Shown here: positions 6,753 through 49,264 of the stretch, piece after piece
Layout of the letters: each line of letters begins with the position of its first letter
Numbering within the stretch: the stretch's first letter is position 1
NCBI GenBank assembly: GCA_900315145.1
Contig: OMYE01000002.1
Span: 1-50,474 of the forward strand
Origin: an uncultured Pseudomonadota bacterium
GTDB lineage: Bacteria > Pseudomonadota > Gammaproteobacteria > Enterobacterales > Succinivibrionaceae
DNA length: 50,474 nucleotides
Direction of reading: 5' to 3'
Program-made: the position numbers and the translations under genes
Notes under the pieces: model-generated
The model's database searches: none
Told to the model about the DNA's origin: nothing
Seen by the model: only the letters and a program-made list of their open reading frames with translations

Positions 6753-6828
6753 AGGGGCATAGTTCTAATGGTAGAACAGCGGTCTCCAAAACCGACGGTT
6801 GTGAGTTCGAGTCTTACTGCCCCTGCCA
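6753..6828 (+). tRNA. tRNA-Trp (CCA), copy 1
   Basis: A full cloverleaf can be drawn: acceptor AGGGGCA/TGCCCCT, D stem GTTC/GAAC, anticodon loop CTCCAAA with anticodon CCA at 6786-6788, T stem GTGAG/CTTAC around TTCGAGT, discriminator G, and an encoded CCA end. The anticodon stem GCGGT/ACCGA has a G27-A43 mismatch that the second copy lacks. Confidence 0.93.
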
Positions 6829-6851
6829 ACAAAACTTATTACATTCTAAAT

Positions 6852-6927
6852 AGGGGCATAGTTCAATTGGTAGAGCAGCGGTCTCCAAAACCGCAAGTTG
6901 TGAGTTCGAGTCTTACTGCCCCTGCCA
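6852..6927 (+). tRNA. tRNA-Trp (CCA), copy 2
   Basis: Second tRNA-Trp 23 bases after the first, probably on the same transcript. Acceptor, T arm and CCA end are identical to copy 1; the D loop, the anticodon stem (GCGGT/ACCGC, fully paired) and the variable loop differ. The anticodon CCA is at 6885-6887. Confidence 0.95.
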
Positions 6928-40250: not shown

Positions 40251-41678
40251 ATGCAGGTTGAGATAAGTAATCGTTCACTTTTAGTGCTATTCCCTATTCT
40301 TTTTTGTACCATAGCACAACTGACTGGAGCCGGTAATCTGCTGCCTAACGGTAGCGGAAGCTTACTTTCGTCCATAATTCCGTGGATTTTCTCCCTTTCT
40401 CTGGCATCACTTGTTCCGTCAAACAACCGTTCGTGGATGCTGATTGGCAGTACTGCGTCTTTTTTTCTGATATTTTACGTTCTTCATTTAATTCATAAGG
40501 ACTATACCTATTTCTCACTGGTAGCTGTCTTTTTAGGTCCTCTTTCAGCGACAATGATTCATCCTCACAGTCGCCGTAAAATTAATCGCAAAGCCAGAAT
40601 AATGAACCTCATCATCACGTTTATCTTCATGATTACGTTAAGTTTTATTCTGTGCCTTCTGGCCGCCGCACTCTATACCAATATTCAGGAATGGATAAAC
40701 AATCTCTACCTAAGCAGTATCTACAACGACAGCTACTCTTTTATTTACGGAATCATTTATCAGTTCTGCGCCACCTTCGGATTCGGCGGCTTCATACTGG
40801 AAATCAGACATCTTATCGATACCACCTCCGTATCACAGAGTTTCTACAGCACTACAACAGCTCTGTACACAGCAGGTATTCCTGCCATATTTCTTGCTCT
40901 GGTCAAGGAACAGCCGAAAAAACGCCGTCTGTTCTACCTGTTGCTCACCATTCTGGCTTTTATAAGTTCAACTACCGGCTACAGTATCAGTCTGCTGCTG
41001 ATTCTTTTTCTGTGGCTTCAGCCGTCACTTTTCGGCATATACATCATTACAGGTATATTCTTCTATATTGTCGGCTACCAGATTCATTTTGCCCCGCAGG
41101 AGATAACCAAAAGCTTCTACAATCCGGATTTTGATTTTTCCAAAATTAACTTCTCTGATTATAAATTCGACCTGCTTTCACTGGCCGTATTCATTGTTAA
41201 TTACTCCTCATCGGTAATTGTGCTGAAGGAAAAGCAGAAATATACCCAGAACACCGGTCAGGTCATACGCGTAAAACCTCTGGTCATCGATATTCTCTCC
41301 GATATCGGCACGCAGGACTACAGTCTTAGCATGGTAAACATCATCAAGAATGTGGGCGGCTTTGACAACATTCTGCATGTATCCCTTCAGGAGAATACCA
41401 TAAACTTCACCGTTATGGACTATCAGGAGGTGAATTTCACAGAACTGCAGAAAATGGGAACCACATCCTCATATGTAGATAATTTTATGCAGCATATATC
41501 ATTCACTCCGCGTTCATGCAGTACCGAACTCTATAACAAAATTATTGAACTGGCTGAATTCAATCTGTTGGATGTCAGCAGCGAATATCATGAAATAGAA
41601 CCGTATTCTATCGAGAAGAGCAAGTTTAAAAACCTTTACAATACTAAGGAAGAAATTCATGCCATGGATTCAAATTAA
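40251..41678 (+). CDS. Degenerate PTS EIICB-like membrane protein (glucose family)
   Basis: Membrane protein of 475 residues with about ten hydrophobic segments (7-325) and a cytoplasmic C-terminal domain (about 345-440). The whole follows PTS glucose-family EIICB: opening [21 protein letters not shown] like the PVAGLLLG start, a FGFGGF...IRHLI segment like the FGLHH region, and a C-terminal part [19 protein letters not shown] plus [13 protein letters not shown] that aligns with EIIB (ALGGKENIVNVDACITRL, LKKLGAAGVV). The phosphorylated EIIB Cys is Gln380, and the EIIC sugar motif GITEPIEF is TGYSISLL, so it should not carry phosphate or transport like a PTS. Overlaps prmA by 20 bases. No Shine-Dalgarno is obvious. 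Confidence 0.65.
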
Positions 41679-42769: not shown

Positions 42770-43084
42770 ATGTTAAATATAAATAATAAAATTAGTGTTA
42801 ACGGTCAGAGAACCATGATTTCCGAAAAACATAACACCGAAGTTCAGAATGTTCCTCAGAAACCGTTATATGAGTCTGTTCTTACTTCAGTAAATAACTT
42901 CCTTAATAATCCAGCCAATGCAGGTACCACTGATTTGTACGAAATTGTTTTAAGCGAAGTTGAACGTCCGTTATTAGATCGTGTAATGCAGTTTGTTCAC
43001 GGCAACCAGACCAAGGCTGCCAAAATGATGGGTATCAACCGCGGTACTCTTCGCAAGAAACTGAAAAAGTACAGTTTAAGCTAA
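42770..43084 (+). CDS. fis: Nucleoid protein Fis
   Basis: DNA-bending factor for inversion and rRNA control. The C-terminal helix-turn-helix KAAKMMGINRGTLRKKLKKY is nearly identical to E. coli, as is LYEIVLSEVERPLLDRVMQF. 104 residues against 98, the extra at the N-terminus. dusB, which precedes fis in E. coli, is not here; fis has its own 235-base upstream region. AAGG precedes the ATG. Confidence 0.97.
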   Translation: MLNINNKISVNGQRTMISEKHNTEVQNVPQKPLYESVLTSVNNFLNNPANAGTTDLYEIVLSEVERPLLDRVMQFVHGNQTKAAKMMGINRGTLRKKLKKYSLS

Positions 43085-43138
43085 TTTTTTCTGTTCCTGA
43101 TTAATCAGAAAGGAGCAGATTCAGAACATTGTACGTGT

Positions 43139-43170
43139 AAAGGCTACAAAATAAAAGTAGCCTTTTTTTT
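43139..43170 (+). terminator. Rho-independent terminator of fis
   Basis: AAGGCTAC/GTAGCCTT around a 9-base A-rich loop, then a run of eight T residues. Confidence 0.93.
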
Positions 43171-43511
43171 ACCACGTGTGTTTATGTCCATTTAAATCAC
43201 CATCACTCCTCTTCAGTATCCGTTTATAATCGCATCCTACTCATCCCCATGCTGTTTATTATCTCTAGATCTAAAGCACCTGTCCAAATCCTGTTCCTGA
43301 CACCTCAGCCATCCCGTTGACAGACTTTTCCACTACTCTTGTTTTGTATTTTTCAGCTGATTACCTTCCTGTAAAATCATCACAGATCCCGTCAGGCAAG
43401 CACGATGTGAACAGTTCTGACAGGAAAAAACTTAATGCACAAACAAAGGCACTAAGGTATAATGAAAGGATCGTCTAGAAAACAGTTATATGATATAGGA
43501 CAATATCGCAA
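43171..43511. other. Intergenic region before the ATPase-helicase pair
   Basis: About 340 bases with somewhat more mixed composition than other spacers. TATAAT near 43459, about 48 bases before the ATPase start, may be its -10; -35 not clear. No ORF supported. Confidence 0.4.
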
Positions 43512-44858
43512 ATGACTCCAAAACTTAGGCCTCGTGAGAGAGAATCGATTATCCAATCACTTCGTTCAGGAGTAACACCCCGCACCGGAATGCACTATAT
43601 TCAGGTAGGCAGGGCCAAGGAAATAGAGGTTATGATTCATGACCTGGATATGGTTGCTCAGGAAGGAAGCACCTTTAAACTAATCATCGGCGATTTCGGA
43701 GCCGGTAAGAGTTTTTTCCTGCAGCTTATCCGCAGTATAGCTCATGAAAAAGGACTGGTAACAATGCGAGCGGATCTGTCGCCGGACAGAAGATTACAGT
43801 CATCTAACGGGCAGGCTCTCAATCTTTTTCAGGAACTTACCAGAAACATGTCAACCAGAGCGATGCCTGACGGAAATGCGCTCAATTCCATAATTGAAAA
43901 ATTCATAACATGTGCCCGTGTTAAAGCTGATGAAACCGGCACAGACTGTTCAGTGGTGATTAAAGAACTTCTCAGACCTCTTAATGATATGGTTGGCGGT
44001 TTTGATTTTACCATGGTAATTAACGCTTACTGGAAAGGCTTTAACGAAGGCAATGATTTTCTCGTAAGCTGTGCTAATAAATGGCTTCGAGGCGAATACC
44101 ACAGCAAACTGGAAGCACGTCAGGATCTAGGTGTAAGAACTATTATTGATGATTCTTCAGTTTACGATTATTTCAAACTGTTCAGTCAGTTCACCCAAAT
44201 AGCCGGCTACAAAGGATTAATCATTCTTATGGATGAAATGGTGAATCTTTACAAGATTCACAATTCCCGCTCACGAGAATCAAACTATGAACAGATTCTC
44301 CGCATACTCAATGACTGTCTGCAGGGAAATGTCAGCGGTCTCGGCTTTGTCATGGGAGGAACAGTAGACTTTCTTGAAGATCCGAGAAAAGGTCTGTTCA
44401 GTTATGAAGCGTTGCATTCACGTCTTGCGGGCAATGTATTCGCTGAAGCTGCCGGAGTAAACGACCTGAGCGGCCCTGTTATGCATCTTGACAATCTTAC
44501 CCCGGAAGAACTGTATGTACTTCTTACCAATATAAGAAATGTTTTTGCCTACTACAAGGAAGACGACTATCTGGTACCTGACACCGCCCTGTCAAAATTT
44601 TTAGAGCACTGCTCAAACAAAATCGGTGAGGCTTATTTTAAGACTCCCCGCAATACCATCAAGGCATTTGTCGATTTTCTGTCAGTTCTTGAACAGAATC
44701 CGGACATAAAGTGGGAGGAATTACTCCAGGGCATAAAAATCACAAAAGAAGAGAGCGATTCCCTGTCATTTAATGACGAATCTTTTAACGAAGGTCAGAA
44801 CGAACCGGAAAAATCAGAAGAAAACGACGAGGATGCTCTGGTCAGTTTTACCCTTTAA
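43512..44858 (+). CDS. BrxD/SngB-like AAA ATPase (DUF2791 type)
   Basis: ATP-binding protein of the family found as BrxD in BREX type 2 and as the ATPase of Shango-like anti-phage systems. Walker A GDFGAGKS at 60-67, Walker B LIILMDE at 236-242, sensor FVMGGT near 279, and a late TPRNTIKAF (378-386) where a sensor-2 arginine is expected. The start with RESIIQSLRSGVTPRTGMHY and the line VGRAKEIEVMIHDLD fits the family. 448 residues ending in an acidic tail. The helicase gene follows at 160 bases; this pairing is the known signature. No TerB-domain, pglX/Z or brxC gene is in view. Function here is inferred. Confidence 0.8.
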   Translation: MTPKLRPRERESIIQSLRSGVTPRTGMHYIQVGRAKEIEVMIHDLDMVAQEGSTFKLIIGDFGAGKSFFLQLIRSIAHEKGLVTMRADLSPDRRLQSSNGQALNLFQELTRNMSTRAMPDGNALNSIIEKFITCARVKADETGTDCSVVIKELLRPLNDMVGGFDFTMVINAYWKGFNEGNDFLVSCANKWLRGEYHSKLEARQDLGVRTIIDDSSVYDYFKLFSQFTQIAGYKGLIILMDEMVNLYKIHNSRSRESNYEQILRILNDCLQGNVSGLGFVMGGTVDFLEDPRKGLFSYEALHSRLAGNVFAEAAGVNDLSGPVMHLDNLTPEELYVLLTNIRNVFAYYKEDDYLVPDTALSKFLEHCSNKIGEAYFKTPRNTIKAFVDFLSVLEQNPDIKWEELLQGIKITKEESDSLSFNDESFNEGQNEPEKSEENDEDALVSFTL

Positions 44859-45020
44859 TACCAATACGGCACACCGGAACGGTATAATCTTATAAATGAT
44901 TATGCAGTACCGGTCTGCAGCAGATAATCACAGACTGTCACTATATTCTATATTCTGTCTTCCGGCTGGATGTGGCAGTCTTTCTGATATGTATCAGACA
45001 TAAATTTAGGAAAAGTTCAA

Positions 45021-47252
45021 ATGAACAGTCATTCCAACGCTAGTCAGCTTAATAAAAACATCCTCAGATATCTGCACCACCTTGGCTGGAAGCAGCTGAA
45101 TGAAATTCAGGAACAGTCCATTCCGGTGATATTAAACGGCAAAAATGATGTCATCATAAGTGCCGCCACAGCCAGTGGCAAAACTGAAGCCGCATTCCTG
45201 CCGATATGCACTTCTATATTGAACAAACCGGCCGAAGGAGTGCTGGCAATTTACATCAGTCCGCTTAAAGCCCTGATTAATGACCAGTTTAAAAGAATCG
45301 AAGCTTTGGGTGACTTTGTGGGTATAAAAGTAACCCCGTGGCATGGTGATATAGGAACAAACATTAAGGACAAGACCCTCGAAAATCCTTCAGGAATTAT
45401 TTTAATCACACCGGAATCACTGGAGTCACTGCTCATCAATCATTCAAACTGGTATAAAAAATATTTCAAAAACCTGAGATATATAGTTATAGACGAATTT
45501 CACGCCTTTATCGGAATTGAACGAGGCTACCAGCTTCTCAGTCAGATGCACCGGATAGAGTTTATGACTCATAAAAAAATTACCAGAATTGCCCTGAGCG
45601 CCACCTTGAGCAACGTAGATTCAGTGAGCCGCTGGCTGCGTTCCGGACCCGATTCCCGTCCGGTAATCATTGAAAACGGCTCCAGTCACAAAAGACTGCT
45701 GCTACAACTCCGCGGATACAGTACCGGGAAAACCGGGAACGGTGAGCCTGTCGGTTCCACACCGGAGATAGCCAACGATCTTTTTAAACTGTTGCGCGGA
45801 AGCACCAATCTGGTATTTGCCAACAGCCGAGCCGAAACCGAAAACCTGGCCAACAGACTTGCGGAAATTACCGCCTCGCATCATCTGCCTCTAGAATTCT
45901 TTCCACACCATGGTTCGCTTTCAAAAGAACTGCGTATCCGTCTGGAGGATCGATTAAAAACCGCCCGTCTCCCGACTACAGCCATCTGTACCCAGACTCT
46001 TGAACTCGGTATAGATATAGGTGATACCAGCTCCGTTGCCCAGATCGCCACACCACAGTCTGTTGCCAGTCTGCGACAGAGAATCGGTCGATCCGGCCGC
46101 CGGGACAAGGATGCTGTACTCAGAGTATTTATTCCGGAAATCAGTCTTGATGCATTCACCAATGAAGGCAACGTCCAAAGCTGCCTCCGTCTTGAAACGT
46201 TTACTACCACAGCAATTCTTGAACTGGTTTTAAGCAACTGGTACGAACCTCCTACATCCCATGAATATGCCATGTCCACACTGATTCAGCAGATTTTAAG
46301 TGTTATTTCAGAAGTAGGCAGTGTCAAGGCTTTAAGCCTGTGGAAACTTCTATGTAAAACAGGCCCGTTCAACCTGGTGACCCCGGAAATTTTTGCCATG
46401 ATACTGAAGGCCATAGGAAGTCACAACCTTATTTCCCAAATGCGCGACGGCGATCTGGTTCTTGGTACTGACGGTGAGAAAATAGTATCAAATTACAATT
46501 TCTACACTTCTTTTAAAAGTCAGGAGGAGTATACAGTCAACTATAACGGCACCAACATCGGCACCCTGCCTCTGAACCAGCCCCTTGAACTTGGAGAAAC
46601 ATTCCTGTTCGCAGGGAAGGGCTGGGAGGTTATTTTCTTCAGCAGTGAAAAGAGACAGATAACCGTAAAACCGTACAAGGAGACTACCATGCCGATCGCC
46701 ATTGACGGGAACGGCATGAAAATACATGACGGAGTCCGGGAAAAAATCTATCAGCTGTACACCAGCAGTACTGTACCTAAATATCTAAACAGGACTGCCG
46801 TACAGCATTTTCAGGAAGGACAGAAATTCTTTAAATATCTGAATCTGGCAGACAACCGCTATGTAGTCGGTCTGGATGGTGTCTATATCTTCCCTTGGAA
46901 GGGGGACAAAATAATGTACACCATTGTGCAGATACTCAGAGCCTACGGCATAAAAGCCAGAAAGATCGGCAGCTACATATTTGCCAGCAATATTACCACC
47001 ATTCAGTATAAGGACACTGTTAATATAATTAATAACTCCCCGGCACCTTCAGAAGAGAAACTGGCTGCTAGAATAAGCAATCTTGAGCATGATAAATTTG
47101 ATAAATATCTAACAAAGGAACTGCAGTGCATTCAGTATGGATATCGTAACTTCGACGTATCCGGAGCCATGGAGTTTTTTAAAAACGACGCATTAAAAGC
47201 GAAAACCCCGTTTAATCCTGTCAATAATGCAGCCTACAGCATAGCAGAATAG
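45021..47252 (+). CDS. BrxHI/SngC-like DEAD/DEAH (Lhr-type) helicase
   Basis: Superfamily 2 helicase of 743 residues. Motif I ATASGKT (49-55), Ia ISPLKALINDQ (79-89), Ib TPESLESL, II DEFH (158-161), III SATL (193-196), V CTQTLELGIDIG (323-334), VI QRIGRSGRR (353-361). The Lhr-like arrangement (GIDIG then LRQRIGRSGRR) and the accompanying BrxD-like ATPase mark it as the BrxHI-type enzyme of BREX type 2 and Shango-like defence. All catalytic motifs are intact. RBS AGGAAAA precedes the ATG. The 160-base gap to the ATPase gene is long for a tight operon but has no terminator. Confidence 0.82.
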   Translation: MNSHSNASQLNKNILRYLHHLGWKQLNEIQEQSIPVILNGKNDVIISAATASGKTEAAFLPICTSILNKPAEGVLAIYISPLKALINDQFKRIEALGDFVGIKVTPWHGDIGTNIKDKTLENPSGIILITPESLESLLINHSNWYKKYFKNLRYIVIDEFHAFIGIERGYQLLSQMHRIEFMTHKKITRIALSATLSNVDSVSRWLRSGPDSRPVIIENGSSHKRLLLQLRGYSTGKTGNGEPVGSTPEIANDLFKLLRGSTNLVFANSRAETENLANRLAEITASHHLPLEFFPHHGSLSKELRIRLEDRLKTARLPTTAICTQTLELGIDIGDTSSVAQIATPQSVASLRQRIGRSGRRDKDAVLRVFIPEISLDAFTNEGNVQSCLRLETFTTTAILELVLSNWYEPPTSHEYAMSTLIQQILSVISEVGSVKALSLWKLLCKTGPFNLVTPEIFAMILKAIGSHNLISQMRDGDLVLGTDGEKIVSNYNFYTSFKSQEEYTVNYNGTNIGTLPLNQPLELGETFLFAGKGWEVIFFSSEKRQITVKPYKETTMPIAIDGNGMKIHDGVREKIYQLYTSSTVPKYLNRTAVQHFQEGQKFFKYLNLADNRYVVGLDGVYIFPWKGDKIMYTIVQILRAYGIKARKIGSYIFASNITTIQYKDTVNIINNSPAPSEEKLAARISNLEHDKFDKYLTKELQCIQYGYRNFDVSGAMEFFKNDALKAKTPFNPVNNAAYSIAE

Positions 47253-47533: not shown

Positions 47534-48142
47534 CTACATAGCCGTAATCATCAGCGGTTTAAAAATAATTTCTTTAAGAATAAATAAAAAACAGCAGGCG
47601 TAAATACCGCTTATGATATCATCCACAACCACTGTAACACTTCCGGGAAGAACACGCTGTAGAGAGGAAATAGGAAACGGCTTCAGCATATCAACAGCAC
47701 GATAGGTGCAAAAAACAAGTATCAGATAATACCATTCCTCAATGCTGAATCCGAAACTGGTATAAAGCATTCCAAGCAGATCATCACAAACAATACGATG
47801 TTTATTTGTATGACCTATTAAAGTATAAATCTTTTGGGTAACATAAAGGCACAGTGCAGTGAGCAGAACAAGAATAACAGCCTTACCATACCAGGGAAAA
47901 ACCATGAATAGCAGACATAAAGGAACTGAAGCAGCAGAAGCCCATGTCCCTGGACGCTTAACCTTCAGACTTAAACCGCAGAAGGTTGCAAGTGAATGCA
48001 ATGGATTAAAAAGATTAATATAATTGAGCTTTTCAACATCAATCCGATAAGTCTTATCATTGTCTGCTGTTAACGTCTTATTTTCAGCCACACCAGCTTT
48101 ATTCTCAGACTGAACTGTAGACTGACCGATGTCACTAGCCAT
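47534..48142 (-). CDS. pgpA: Phosphatidylglycerophosphatase A
   Basis: Dephosphorylates phosphatidylglycerol phosphate in the inner membrane. Family segments: FNPLHSLATFCGLS...PGTWAS like NPWHLLAVGFGSGLSP...GTMGS, CDDLLGM in place of WDEFIGM (E to D), RAVDMLKPFPIS, and VVVDDIISGIYA. Several membrane segments. 202 residues, about 30 longer than E. coli because of a hydrophilic N-terminal extension (1-35). The ATG has TGAGG 8 bases upstream. In E. coli pgpA follows thiL; here it is alone next to the ATPase-helicase pair. Confidence 0.88.
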   Translation of the reverse strand: MASDIGQSTVQSENKAGVAENKTLTADNDKTYRIDVEKLNYINLFNPLHSLATFCGLSLKVKRPGTWASAASVPLCLLFMVFPWYGKAVILVLLTALCLYVTQKIYTLIGHTNKHRIVCDDLLGMLYTSFGFSIEEWYYLILVFCTYRAVDMLKPFPISSLQRVLPGSVTVVVDDIISGIYACCFLFILKEIIFKPLMITAM

Positions 48143-48355: not shown

Positions 48356-49264
48356 TTACATATTTAAAAGCAGGTAGATTTCATTCTTATTCTTAAGAAC
48401 AATTTGCTGATTTTCCGGATCGGCTGACTCATCATCCGGACCAAGCCTCAGTGTTCGTAATGTATAGAACAGGAGAGCCTGACGGCACTTGTACACAACC
48501 TCACCGTTTTCCATACCGTAATCCAGTTCAATAGCCTTTCTCTGACTTTCTGAAAGATTTGGATTTGGAATAATATGAAGAGATACAACAAAATTCCATC
48601 TCATATCCTCATTTGGATCAATATCTGATCTTTCAATCTTACCTACAGAAAGGATACGTGAAAGCACAAAATCTCTGAAGTCCTTCTTTTCGTGGCAATA
48701 TGCGCGAACATGCCATCTGATACCATCAAAACCTAAAGCATGTGGAGAAATTAGTCTAGTGCTTACTTCAAGACTGCTCATTGACTGATAACTAATCTTA
48801 AGAGCACTCTTATTTAAAATACAATAAACAATGTTAGAAAGAACTTCATGATTAACTATACGTCTTGGTGGAGCAAAACAGGCAACACTAGGAACCTGAA
48901 GGAGGTAGTTACTGGTATCATGAATAATACCCTGAGCATTCATATACAGGTCATTTAAATATGATGTAGCACTGCAGATAGGATACAGAGGCTTATATTT
49001 AGGAGTCTTGACATAAACTTTTAAATGACGATCATATTCAAGGTTATGAGGAGCCATTTCAGTGTATTTTGCCAAATCAAGTGAAGACTGCGGAATGGAA
49101 ATTCCAAAGAATTCAACAAGATCAGAACGGTTTATATGACCTGACCAGCAAAGACGATAATCAATAAATTCTAAACGTCGTTCCTGATTCCATTTATTAT
49201 TACCTGGTTTAGCAGGCACCTTCTTGCCGGCAAGAGGCTTATTTGCTTTAGCAATTGTATTCAT
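48356..49264 (-). CDS. WYL-domain transcriptional regulator (BrxR/CapW-like)
   Basis: Likely DNA-binding repressor of the kind found in front of BREX, CBASS and other phage-defence loci. A basic tail (1-25), a winged helix-turn-helix (about 26-88; RLEFIDYRLCWSGHINRSDL), a WYL domain (about 135-212) with GIRWHVRAYC in place of the WYL core and DFVLSRI, and a C-terminal WCX-type domain (222-302). The HVRAYC form and FRDFVLSRI are features of the BrxR/CapW branch as remembered. 302 residues. ATG 49264; GGA 8 bases upstream. Its target is unknown; the gene reads toward pgpA, and a defence operon could lie beyond the window. Confidence 0.78.
   Translation of the reverse strand: MNTIAKANKPLAGKKVPAKPGNNKWNQERRLEFIDYRLCWSGHINRSDLVEFFGISIPQSSLDLAKYTEMAPHNLEYDRHLKVYVKTPKYKPLYPICSATSYLNDLYMNAQGIIHDTSNYLLQVPSVACFAPPRRIVNHEVLSNIVYCILNKSALKISYQSMSSLEVSTRLISPHALGFDGIRWHVRAYCHEKKDFRDFVLSRILSVGKIERSDIDPNEDMRWNFVVSLHIIPNPNLSESQRKAIELDYGMENGEVVYKCRQALLFYTLRTLRLGPDDESADPENQQIVLKNKNEIYLLLNM

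Follow-up and report, generated by a model that had tools for sequence, protein, structure and literature searches.

An ATPase-helicase gene pair of most Succinivibrionaceae is probably one half of a split Shango-type system inherited as core genes

We analysed a stretch of 50,474 nucleotides (here called the window) from an uncultured Pseudomonadota bacterium of the Succinivibrionaceae, a family found in gut and rumen (GenBank assembly GCA_900315145.1, contig OMYE01000002.1); in our data set it is contig C147 of genome G000, which comprises 246 contigs and is 94% complete. Our subject is a pair of genes on its forward strand that match the ATPase and helicase genes of the defence system Shango. 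The first, sngB (43512..44858, + strand), encodes a 448-amino-acid AAA+ ATPase of the BrxC/BrxD family (PF10923, 473.5 bits), which PADLOC assigns to the Shango SngB type. The second, sngC (45021..47252, + strand), encodes a 743-amino-acid superfamily 2 (SF2) DExH helicase with the Pfam domains DEAD and Helicase_C, which PADLOC assigns to the Shango SngC type. Both open reading frames (ORFs) start with ATG and are free of internal stops, confirming at exact coordinates the two intact genes of an earlier, sequence-only reading of this DNA (the original prediction). The pair also lies, as that reading had it, between fis (42770-43084, upstream) and pgpA (47534-48142, downstream), both identified with Pfam and NCBIfam. 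The intergenic stretch between fis and sngB (43085..43511, + strand) carries a terminator-like inverted repeat with a T-run 3' of fis and, upstream of sngB, a TATAAT box (43458-43463), a putative promoter element known from its match to the consensus only. Within this stretch, TATAATGAAA is kept in all four genomes of the genus in our upstream comparison.

The PADLOC models place both products with Shango: the SngB model scored 555 bits (E 2.5e-167) on the sngB product against 149 for BrxD, and the SngC model scored 754 bits (E 5.6e-227) on the sngC product against 386 for BrxHI. By model score we identify the pair as SngB and SngC of Shango, and neither as BrxD and BrxHI of BREX nor as Lhr. 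The original prediction matched the pair to both Shango and BREX type 2. The Shango part of that claim stands; the BREX part reduces to common ancestry, since the NCBIfam BrxD equivalog model (NF033438) gave 144.7 bits on SngB, below its cut-off of 350. As evidence against itself, the original prediction had named a placement of the helicase in the housekeeping Lhr group with an unrelated ATPase. However, the best helicase models of NCBIfam reached only 115-215 bits on SngC against cut-offs of 849-1496, with NF007284 (PRK09751), which we take to be the Lhr model, at 115 against 1496 and TIGR04121 at 215 against 850, and we rejected an Lhr-type housekeeping helicase on these scores. SngC does share the SF2 core with the Lhr and YprA/MrfA helicases, and its solved relatives closest by sequence are 5v9x and 7lhl ('ATP-dependent DNA helicase'), both presumably Lhr-type helicases, together with YprA (6znp); it nevertheless scores far below the NCBIfam cut-offs of these groups and has SngB as its constant neighbour. 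A comparison of SngB with the PDB returned chance-level matches only (best E 0.14).

The catalytic motifs are kept not only in the window, as had been claimed, but across nearly all family members read. The Walker A motif G-x-[FY]-G-[AS]-G-K-[ST] is present in 28 of 28 family SngB sequences, and so is a DE Walker B motif (27 by pattern, that of genome G020 by direct reading). In SngC, motif I was found in 17 of 18 family members, the exception being a truncated ORF in G008; the DExH motif was likewise found in 17 of 18 (exception G012), and the SAT and QRxGRxGR motifs in all 18.

The original prediction noted that TerB and BREX partners were absent around the pair, and proposed either a two-gene module or a third component encoded elsewhere. 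We found that the SngA model, at E<=10, matches a single place in the genome, on contig C50 (5321-5764, E 2.8e-18), and that this match spans model positions 397-524 of 528, that is, only the C-terminal quarter. The gene at this place, which we call sngA' (L035:2387-5767), encodes a protein of 1126 amino acids whose sole Pfam domain is TerB_C (52.3 bits, cut-off 26.3), and it adjoins xseA, the gene for the large subunit of exonuclease VII. A third component elsewhere is thus borne out by a TerB_C protein that matches the SngA model and, as described below, co-occurs with the pair across the family; the stand-alone module, which had headed the original prediction, finds no support. Likewise, the absence of TerB or BREX partners holds for the scanned proteins of the window but not for the genome. 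The other TerB-domain genes of this genome, on contigs C41 and C148, were rejected as the third component, as the SngA model did not report them at E<=10. Their products have membrane-like N-termini, and two carry a C-terminal stretch that reads, by eye, like a J-domain. A degenerate SngA remaining at the sngB locus was also rejected: no ORF of at least 80 amino acids lies between fis and sngB in the window.

We then assessed how the pair and SngA' are distributed. SngB was present in 28 of 35 family genomes of a first sample and in none of 24 genomes from other families of the order. In a fuller family sample, 48 of 56 genomes carry an orthologue, the misses being all five genomes of genus g5, both of genus g11, and G063. 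In G063 a contig opens with SngC, which would leave SngB beyond its end, and we count the module in 49 of 56 genomes. These represent 12 of the 14 sampled genera and include a 1.7 Mb genome (G020, 96% complete); the seven module-negative genomes belong to two genera, and two of them are less than 80% complete. At the prmA loci of the five g5 genomes and of G023 the pair is absent, and G013 gave no PrmA match. Of 48 family loci found we checked 28 main ones, and SngC adjoins SngB at every one. The closest named SngB sequences are from Ruminobacter (79-80% identity; R. amylophilus and two metagenome-assembled genomes, MAGs), followed at 69-70% by a Succinivibrionaceae MAG, Succinimonas amylolytica and a MAG named Ruminobacter. 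In the NCBI taxonomy R. amylophilus is assigned to the Succinivibrionaceae, within Aeromonadales and Gammaproteobacteria. Genome G008 has, in a different neighbourhood, a second SngB-like ATPase (L051:9584-10909, 45% identity) without SngC beside it.

A single-sequence search found relatives of SngA' in 27 of the 56 family genomes, the TerB_C model in 43, and a profile (A1) in 46. This profile was built from 17 intact, readable SngA' ORFs and excludes the giant forms of genus g2 and the fragmented G008 copy. By this measure, 46 of 49 module-positive genomes encode SngA', and none of the seven module-negative ones does. In the 41 genomes with a completeness of 90% or more and a contamination of 5% or less, the association is without exception (36 of 36 positive genomes, 0 of 5 negative). 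TerB_C exceeded its cut-off in none of 14 control genomes.

SngA' is consistently remote from the pair. In the 45 family genomes where both SngB and SngA' were found, the two lie on different contigs in 43 and on the same contig in two, spaced 0.93 Mb apart in G011 and 1.41 Mb in G065 (one contig); a three-gene operon occurs in none of the 45. Similarly, among the TerB_C matches listed for 43 of the 56 family genomes, none lies near SngB. At 20 of 21 loci SngA' is a single ORF, of 1021-2070 amino acids. An xseA homologue, called by blastp clustering with a Pfam check on one, is present in the fetched stretch at 16 of these 21 loci (adjacent at 12, separated by other ORFs at 4) and absent at 5. 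The longest forms (1776-2070 amino acids) are those of genus g2 (L142:1678-7551, L150:5698-11910, L154:6707-12037). In G012 TerB_C occurs at three places (C37, C190 and C84, in frames of 1125, 887 and 309 amino acids), and SngA' may be duplicated there. In G008 SngA' (L147:6928-11114) is in pieces; its SngC and another gene are also shortened or broken, reflecting either decay or assembly errors.

We compared 17 aligned SngA' proteins of the family with SngA. All 17 contain TerB_C, and 16 match the SngA model. In a profile comparison with hhalign, the TerB_C region of SngA' matched that of SngA encoded beside SngB in other bacteria with a probability of 99.7 (E 2.3e-26). The whole-length profiles also matched (probability 99.4, E 4.8e-22), a result that is carried by TerB_C. 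The SngA' profile had no match in the PDB at E<=0.1.

Outside the family, we found that SngB has the company expected of Shango. At 28 of 30 non-family loci SngB is directly preceded by an SngA-type ORF: 12 of 14 named loci, 6 of 6 at class level and 10 of 10 at phylum level (with SngC seen at 9 of these 10). The named-locus calls rest on blastp; at L133 SngB is cut by the contig end and no SngA is present, at L134 SngB is shortened, and at the class-level locus L174 the SngB ORF was masked by an overlap filter, its position being known from the class-level search. All nine linked SngA proteins contain TerB_N, TerB and TerB_C. On a Klebsiella plasmid the three genes follow one another in this order too, annotated 'TerB N-terminal domain-containing protein', 'ATP-binding protein' and 'DEAD/DEAH box helicase'. 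At four Bacteroidia loci the ORF before SngB encodes only 182-228 amino acids (L126:7536-8087, L127:9318-10004, L128:9456-10004, L132:9420-10004), and its conserved part is TerB_C-like as judged by alignment, without a Pfam scan. These short proteins have an N-terminus that appears hydrophobic by eye, a charged stretch and the TerB_C-like end, and are perhaps a minimal SngA; their place before SngB suggests that TerB_C is the part that matters to SngB. This gene order agrees with Shango as described, a TerB-like protein, an ATPase and a helicase (PMC10250203); the same work reports anti-phage activity for copies from PA14 and from E. coli. Elsewhere the occurrence of SngB is sporadic. Of 368 further genomes of the class, 6 gave strong matches (E < 1e-140) and six more gave only matches of 21-25% identity. 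Among 397 further genomes of the phylum, 10 gave matches at E<=1e-60, and one of these 10 belongs to the same order as the family. SngB-like genes of less than 60% identity are carried by 680 of 72,556 plasmids, 540 of these typed conjugative, and by none of 50,697 phage records at E<=1e-10. Among the weak class matches, G296 has a second weak SngB copy.

To place the module in the history of the family, we used PrmA (24 rows) and RecJ (22 rows) trees rooted with E. coli. Module-positive genomes form a clade on the RecJ tree (95/90), whereas on the PrmA tree the negatives nest among the positives (89/89); because of this conflict, gain and loss are indistinguishable. Family SngB is monophyletic (SH-aLRT 94) in a quick tree of 57 rows that includes 28 of the 48 family sequences and drew long-row warnings. 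SngB distances correlate with those of PrmA (rho 0.82) and RecJ (0.81), and SngA' distances do so as well (0.76 and 0.73), compared with 0.57-0.82 when core genes of the neighbourhood are set against one another. These correlations drew on no more than 17 genomes with the pair, and on 12 for comparisons with SngA'. Mean identities are 0.65 for SngB, 0.50-0.51 for SngC, 0.22-0.23 for SngA', 0.58-0.59 for PrmA and 0.42-0.45 for RecJ. In one close pair of genomes (G001/G003), dN/dS is 0.053 for SngB and 0.038 for SngC, near the values for PrmA (0.040) and RecJ (0.033), which indicates that SngB and SngC are constrained like housekeeping genes. SngA' (0.095) is under looser constraint, yet inside the range of the other genes tested (0.015-0.110), among them capW (0.015), a ROK gene (0.069) and the gene at 40251 (0.110). 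Together, the trees, distances and dN/dS fit a single acquisition followed by vertical inheritance with purifying selection.

By domain, the scanned neighbours are housekeeping proteins: a sigma-70 factor, DnaG primase, adenylosuccinate synthetase, polyprenyl synthetase, a mismatch-repair protein, TsaE, an NAD(P)HX repair protein, QueG, RecJ, PrmA, Fis and PgpA. We scanned 18 window proteins with Pfam and 26 with PADLOC, smaller ORFs lying outside these scans; among the scanned proteins there is no TerB, PglZ, BREX-type methylase, BrxC or PglX, the search for BrxC and PglX being confined to these proteins and not extended to the rest of the genome. Beyond the pair, PADLOC matched a WYL regulator, and Fis, the sigma factor and DnaG came up as cross-hits; its MzaA and RT matches were rejected as cross-hits to the sigma-70 factor and to DnaG primase. 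In the related genomes, which the original prediction had proposed to search for the pair and its neighbours, the pair is conserved in most of the family, and prmA lies upstream on the same strand, as in the window, at 15 of 16 other family SngB loci read (exception G031), with other ORFs of at least 130 amino acids in between, fis not counted, at 4 of the 15. Directly upstream of prmA, where both were read, is a gene (40251-41678) for a 475-amino-acid protein that has no Pfam match at E 0.01 and diverges fast (about 20-33% between genera); it occupies the place of panF in E. coli. At 6753-6927 the window carries a tandem pair of tRNA-Trp (cca) genes spaced by 23 bases.

The WYL gene (48356..49264, - strand) belongs to the CapW/BrxR family, its product matching the CapW (7tb6, phmmer E 2e-70) and BrxR (7t8k, E 1.5e-44) chains near full-length. 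CapW and BrxR control CBASS and BREX, according to the reports describing them (PMC9122588, PMC9122589, PMC9122601), and the window gene is a possible candidate regulator of the Shango module. Of the 56 Succinivibrionaceae genomes 45 carry a gene of this kind, whereas all seven module-negative ones lack it; it was seen near the pair, at about 4-11 kb, only in genera g1, g6, g7 and g9. Rather than standing upstream of the module, however, it lies convergent to it beyond pgpA.

From these results, we conclude that the pair probably makes up the ATPase and helicase part of a Shango-type system that is complete but split, with SngA' unlinked and the set inherited as core genes; we put the probability of this reading at roughly 0.6. 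As judged from sequence, what we describe is probably a known kind of system in an unusual state: split, with one subunit rebuilt, and fixed in most of the Succinivibrionaceae. Compared with Shango of P. aeruginosa (PA14_RS11735-11745) and E. coli, the pair is clearly of the SngB and SngC types, sngC directly follows sngB, and the same genome encodes a TerB_C protein that matches the SngA model and co-occurs with them. In contrast, SngA' is unlinked, long and lacks a detectable TerB_N or TerB, and the three genes are part of the core genome and inherited vertically, whereas standard Shango is located in defence hotspots or on plasmids. In the accessible portions of the literature, we found no paper naming both Succinivibrionaceae and Shango, no account of a Shango mechanism or of a split Shango among those on Shango, SngA/B/C and TerB, and nothing relevant on defence in Ruminobacter or Succinivibrio.

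Several observations weigh against a split Shango, and some of them also speak for a reading in which SngB and SngC work without a partner in this family, the TerB_C protein having an unrelated job. By Pfam, TerB_N and TerB each match none of the 17 family SngA' proteins, so that the full SngA architecture is not seen; the middle parts of SngA' and linked SngA align with a probability of only 38-40%, and the first 400 residues do not align. Given only this weak collinear match, homology to SngA is not demonstrable outside TerB_C, and we do not claim the body of SngA' as a TerB_N/TerB homologue. For a pair acting alone there is also its lack of linkage to SngA'. Three module-positive genomes (G070, G071 and G073; 89, 69 and 89% complete) yielded no SngA'. 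Module presence and absence also maps to a single branch on both the PrmA (support 96/92) and RecJ (100/99) trees, so the co-occurrence of SngA' with the pair counts as one event; the same pattern would arise for whatever other gene came or went on that branch, and does for the CapW gene, whose own association with the module proves little. SngC tracks core genes less closely than the others (rho 0.69 with PrmA, 0.58 with RecJ and 0.62 with SngB). The original prediction had named a TerB gene elsewhere in the genome, co-regulated with the pair, as evidence against a stand-alone module; of this, the gene itself is present, on C50. Among upstream inverted repeats in the genus and a few relatives we found no operator shared by capW, sngB, sngC and sngA'. 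Even so, a self-sufficient pair is improbable: SngA' is present in every well-completed module-positive genome, an SngA-type ORF precedes SngB at nearly all loci elsewhere, the four Bacteroidia loci retain a short TerB_C-like ORF in that position, and the control genomes are devoid of TerB_C above cut-off. Far less probable still is a BREX remnant, a BrxD and BrxHI pair left after loss of BrxC, PglX and PglZ. The pair does share the Pfam family BrxC_BrxD and the broad helicase family with BREX type 2, and the BrxD and BrxHI models match it; yet the Shango models lead by 406 and 368 bits, the BrxD equivalog cut-off is missed, PglZ (PF08665) has no match in G000 and exceeds its cut-off in only 3 of 56 family genomes, the genome holds an SngA-type partner instead, and relatives elsewhere stand between a TerB-type gene and a helicase. 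We rejected this origin on the model scores and PglZ.

A different question is what the set does. It may have been domesticated, serving mainly in genome maintenance, for example in removing replication or recombination intermediates that are stalled or aberrant, in which case the module would be fixed, split and conserved like repair genes. We regard this as a tentative possibility. It would account for the presence of the module in most sampled genera and even in a 1.7 Mb genome, for identities and dN/dS of SngB and SngC that resemble core genes, for the WYL regulator being the only other defence-system gene among the 26 proteins given to PADLOC, for xseA near SngA', and for the contrast with SngB genes elsewhere, which are sporadic and also occur on plasmids, most of these typed conjugative. 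On the other hand, two sampled genera lack the module, vertical inheritance is also possible for defence systems, and SngA' is the most divergent member (0.22 against 0.65 for SngB), which fits an arms-race sensor as well as weak constraint; as its dN/dS lies within the range of its neighbours, neither is shown. A more specific and somewhat more doubtful version would have a mobile Shango operon come apart in an ancestor shared by most Succinivibrionaceae, with a new sensor built around a TerB_C anchor and the whole now acting as a core, DNA-damage-related maintenance complex with exonuclease VII under a CapW-type regulator.

If the pair belongs to a split Shango-type system, then most likely one module was acquired, or retained, once in the lineage of the 12 module-bearing genera. 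The SngA gene would have separated from sngB and sngC, its TerB_N/TerB part being replaced or eroded past recognition, and the set would since have been passed on vertically as core genes. The proteins may form a complex in which SngA' would dock on SngB through TerB_C; SngB would be a loader or switch on DNA that licenses SngC, and SngC would unwind or translocate on DNA at the recognised site. The target would be incoming phage or plasmid DNA, giving an anti-phage output, or damaged replication intermediates. Pfam detects no nuclease domain in SngB, SngC or SngA', which suggests that the system would not itself cut DNA but would block replication or leave the cutting to a host nuclease; naming XseA as this nuclease is a guess based on where its gene lies.

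Detection programs that require the genes to be adjacent would miss a split system or report an orphan pair, so that split systems form a blind spot. Of the parts of SngA, TerB_C alone is present in all the forms we saw, which points to it as the contact to the ATPase-helicase pair. A defence system that has settled in the core genome of most of a family would offer a natural test of the Shango mechanism. The module of the Succinivibrionaceae also makes a case for asking whether defence systems become housekeeping machines.

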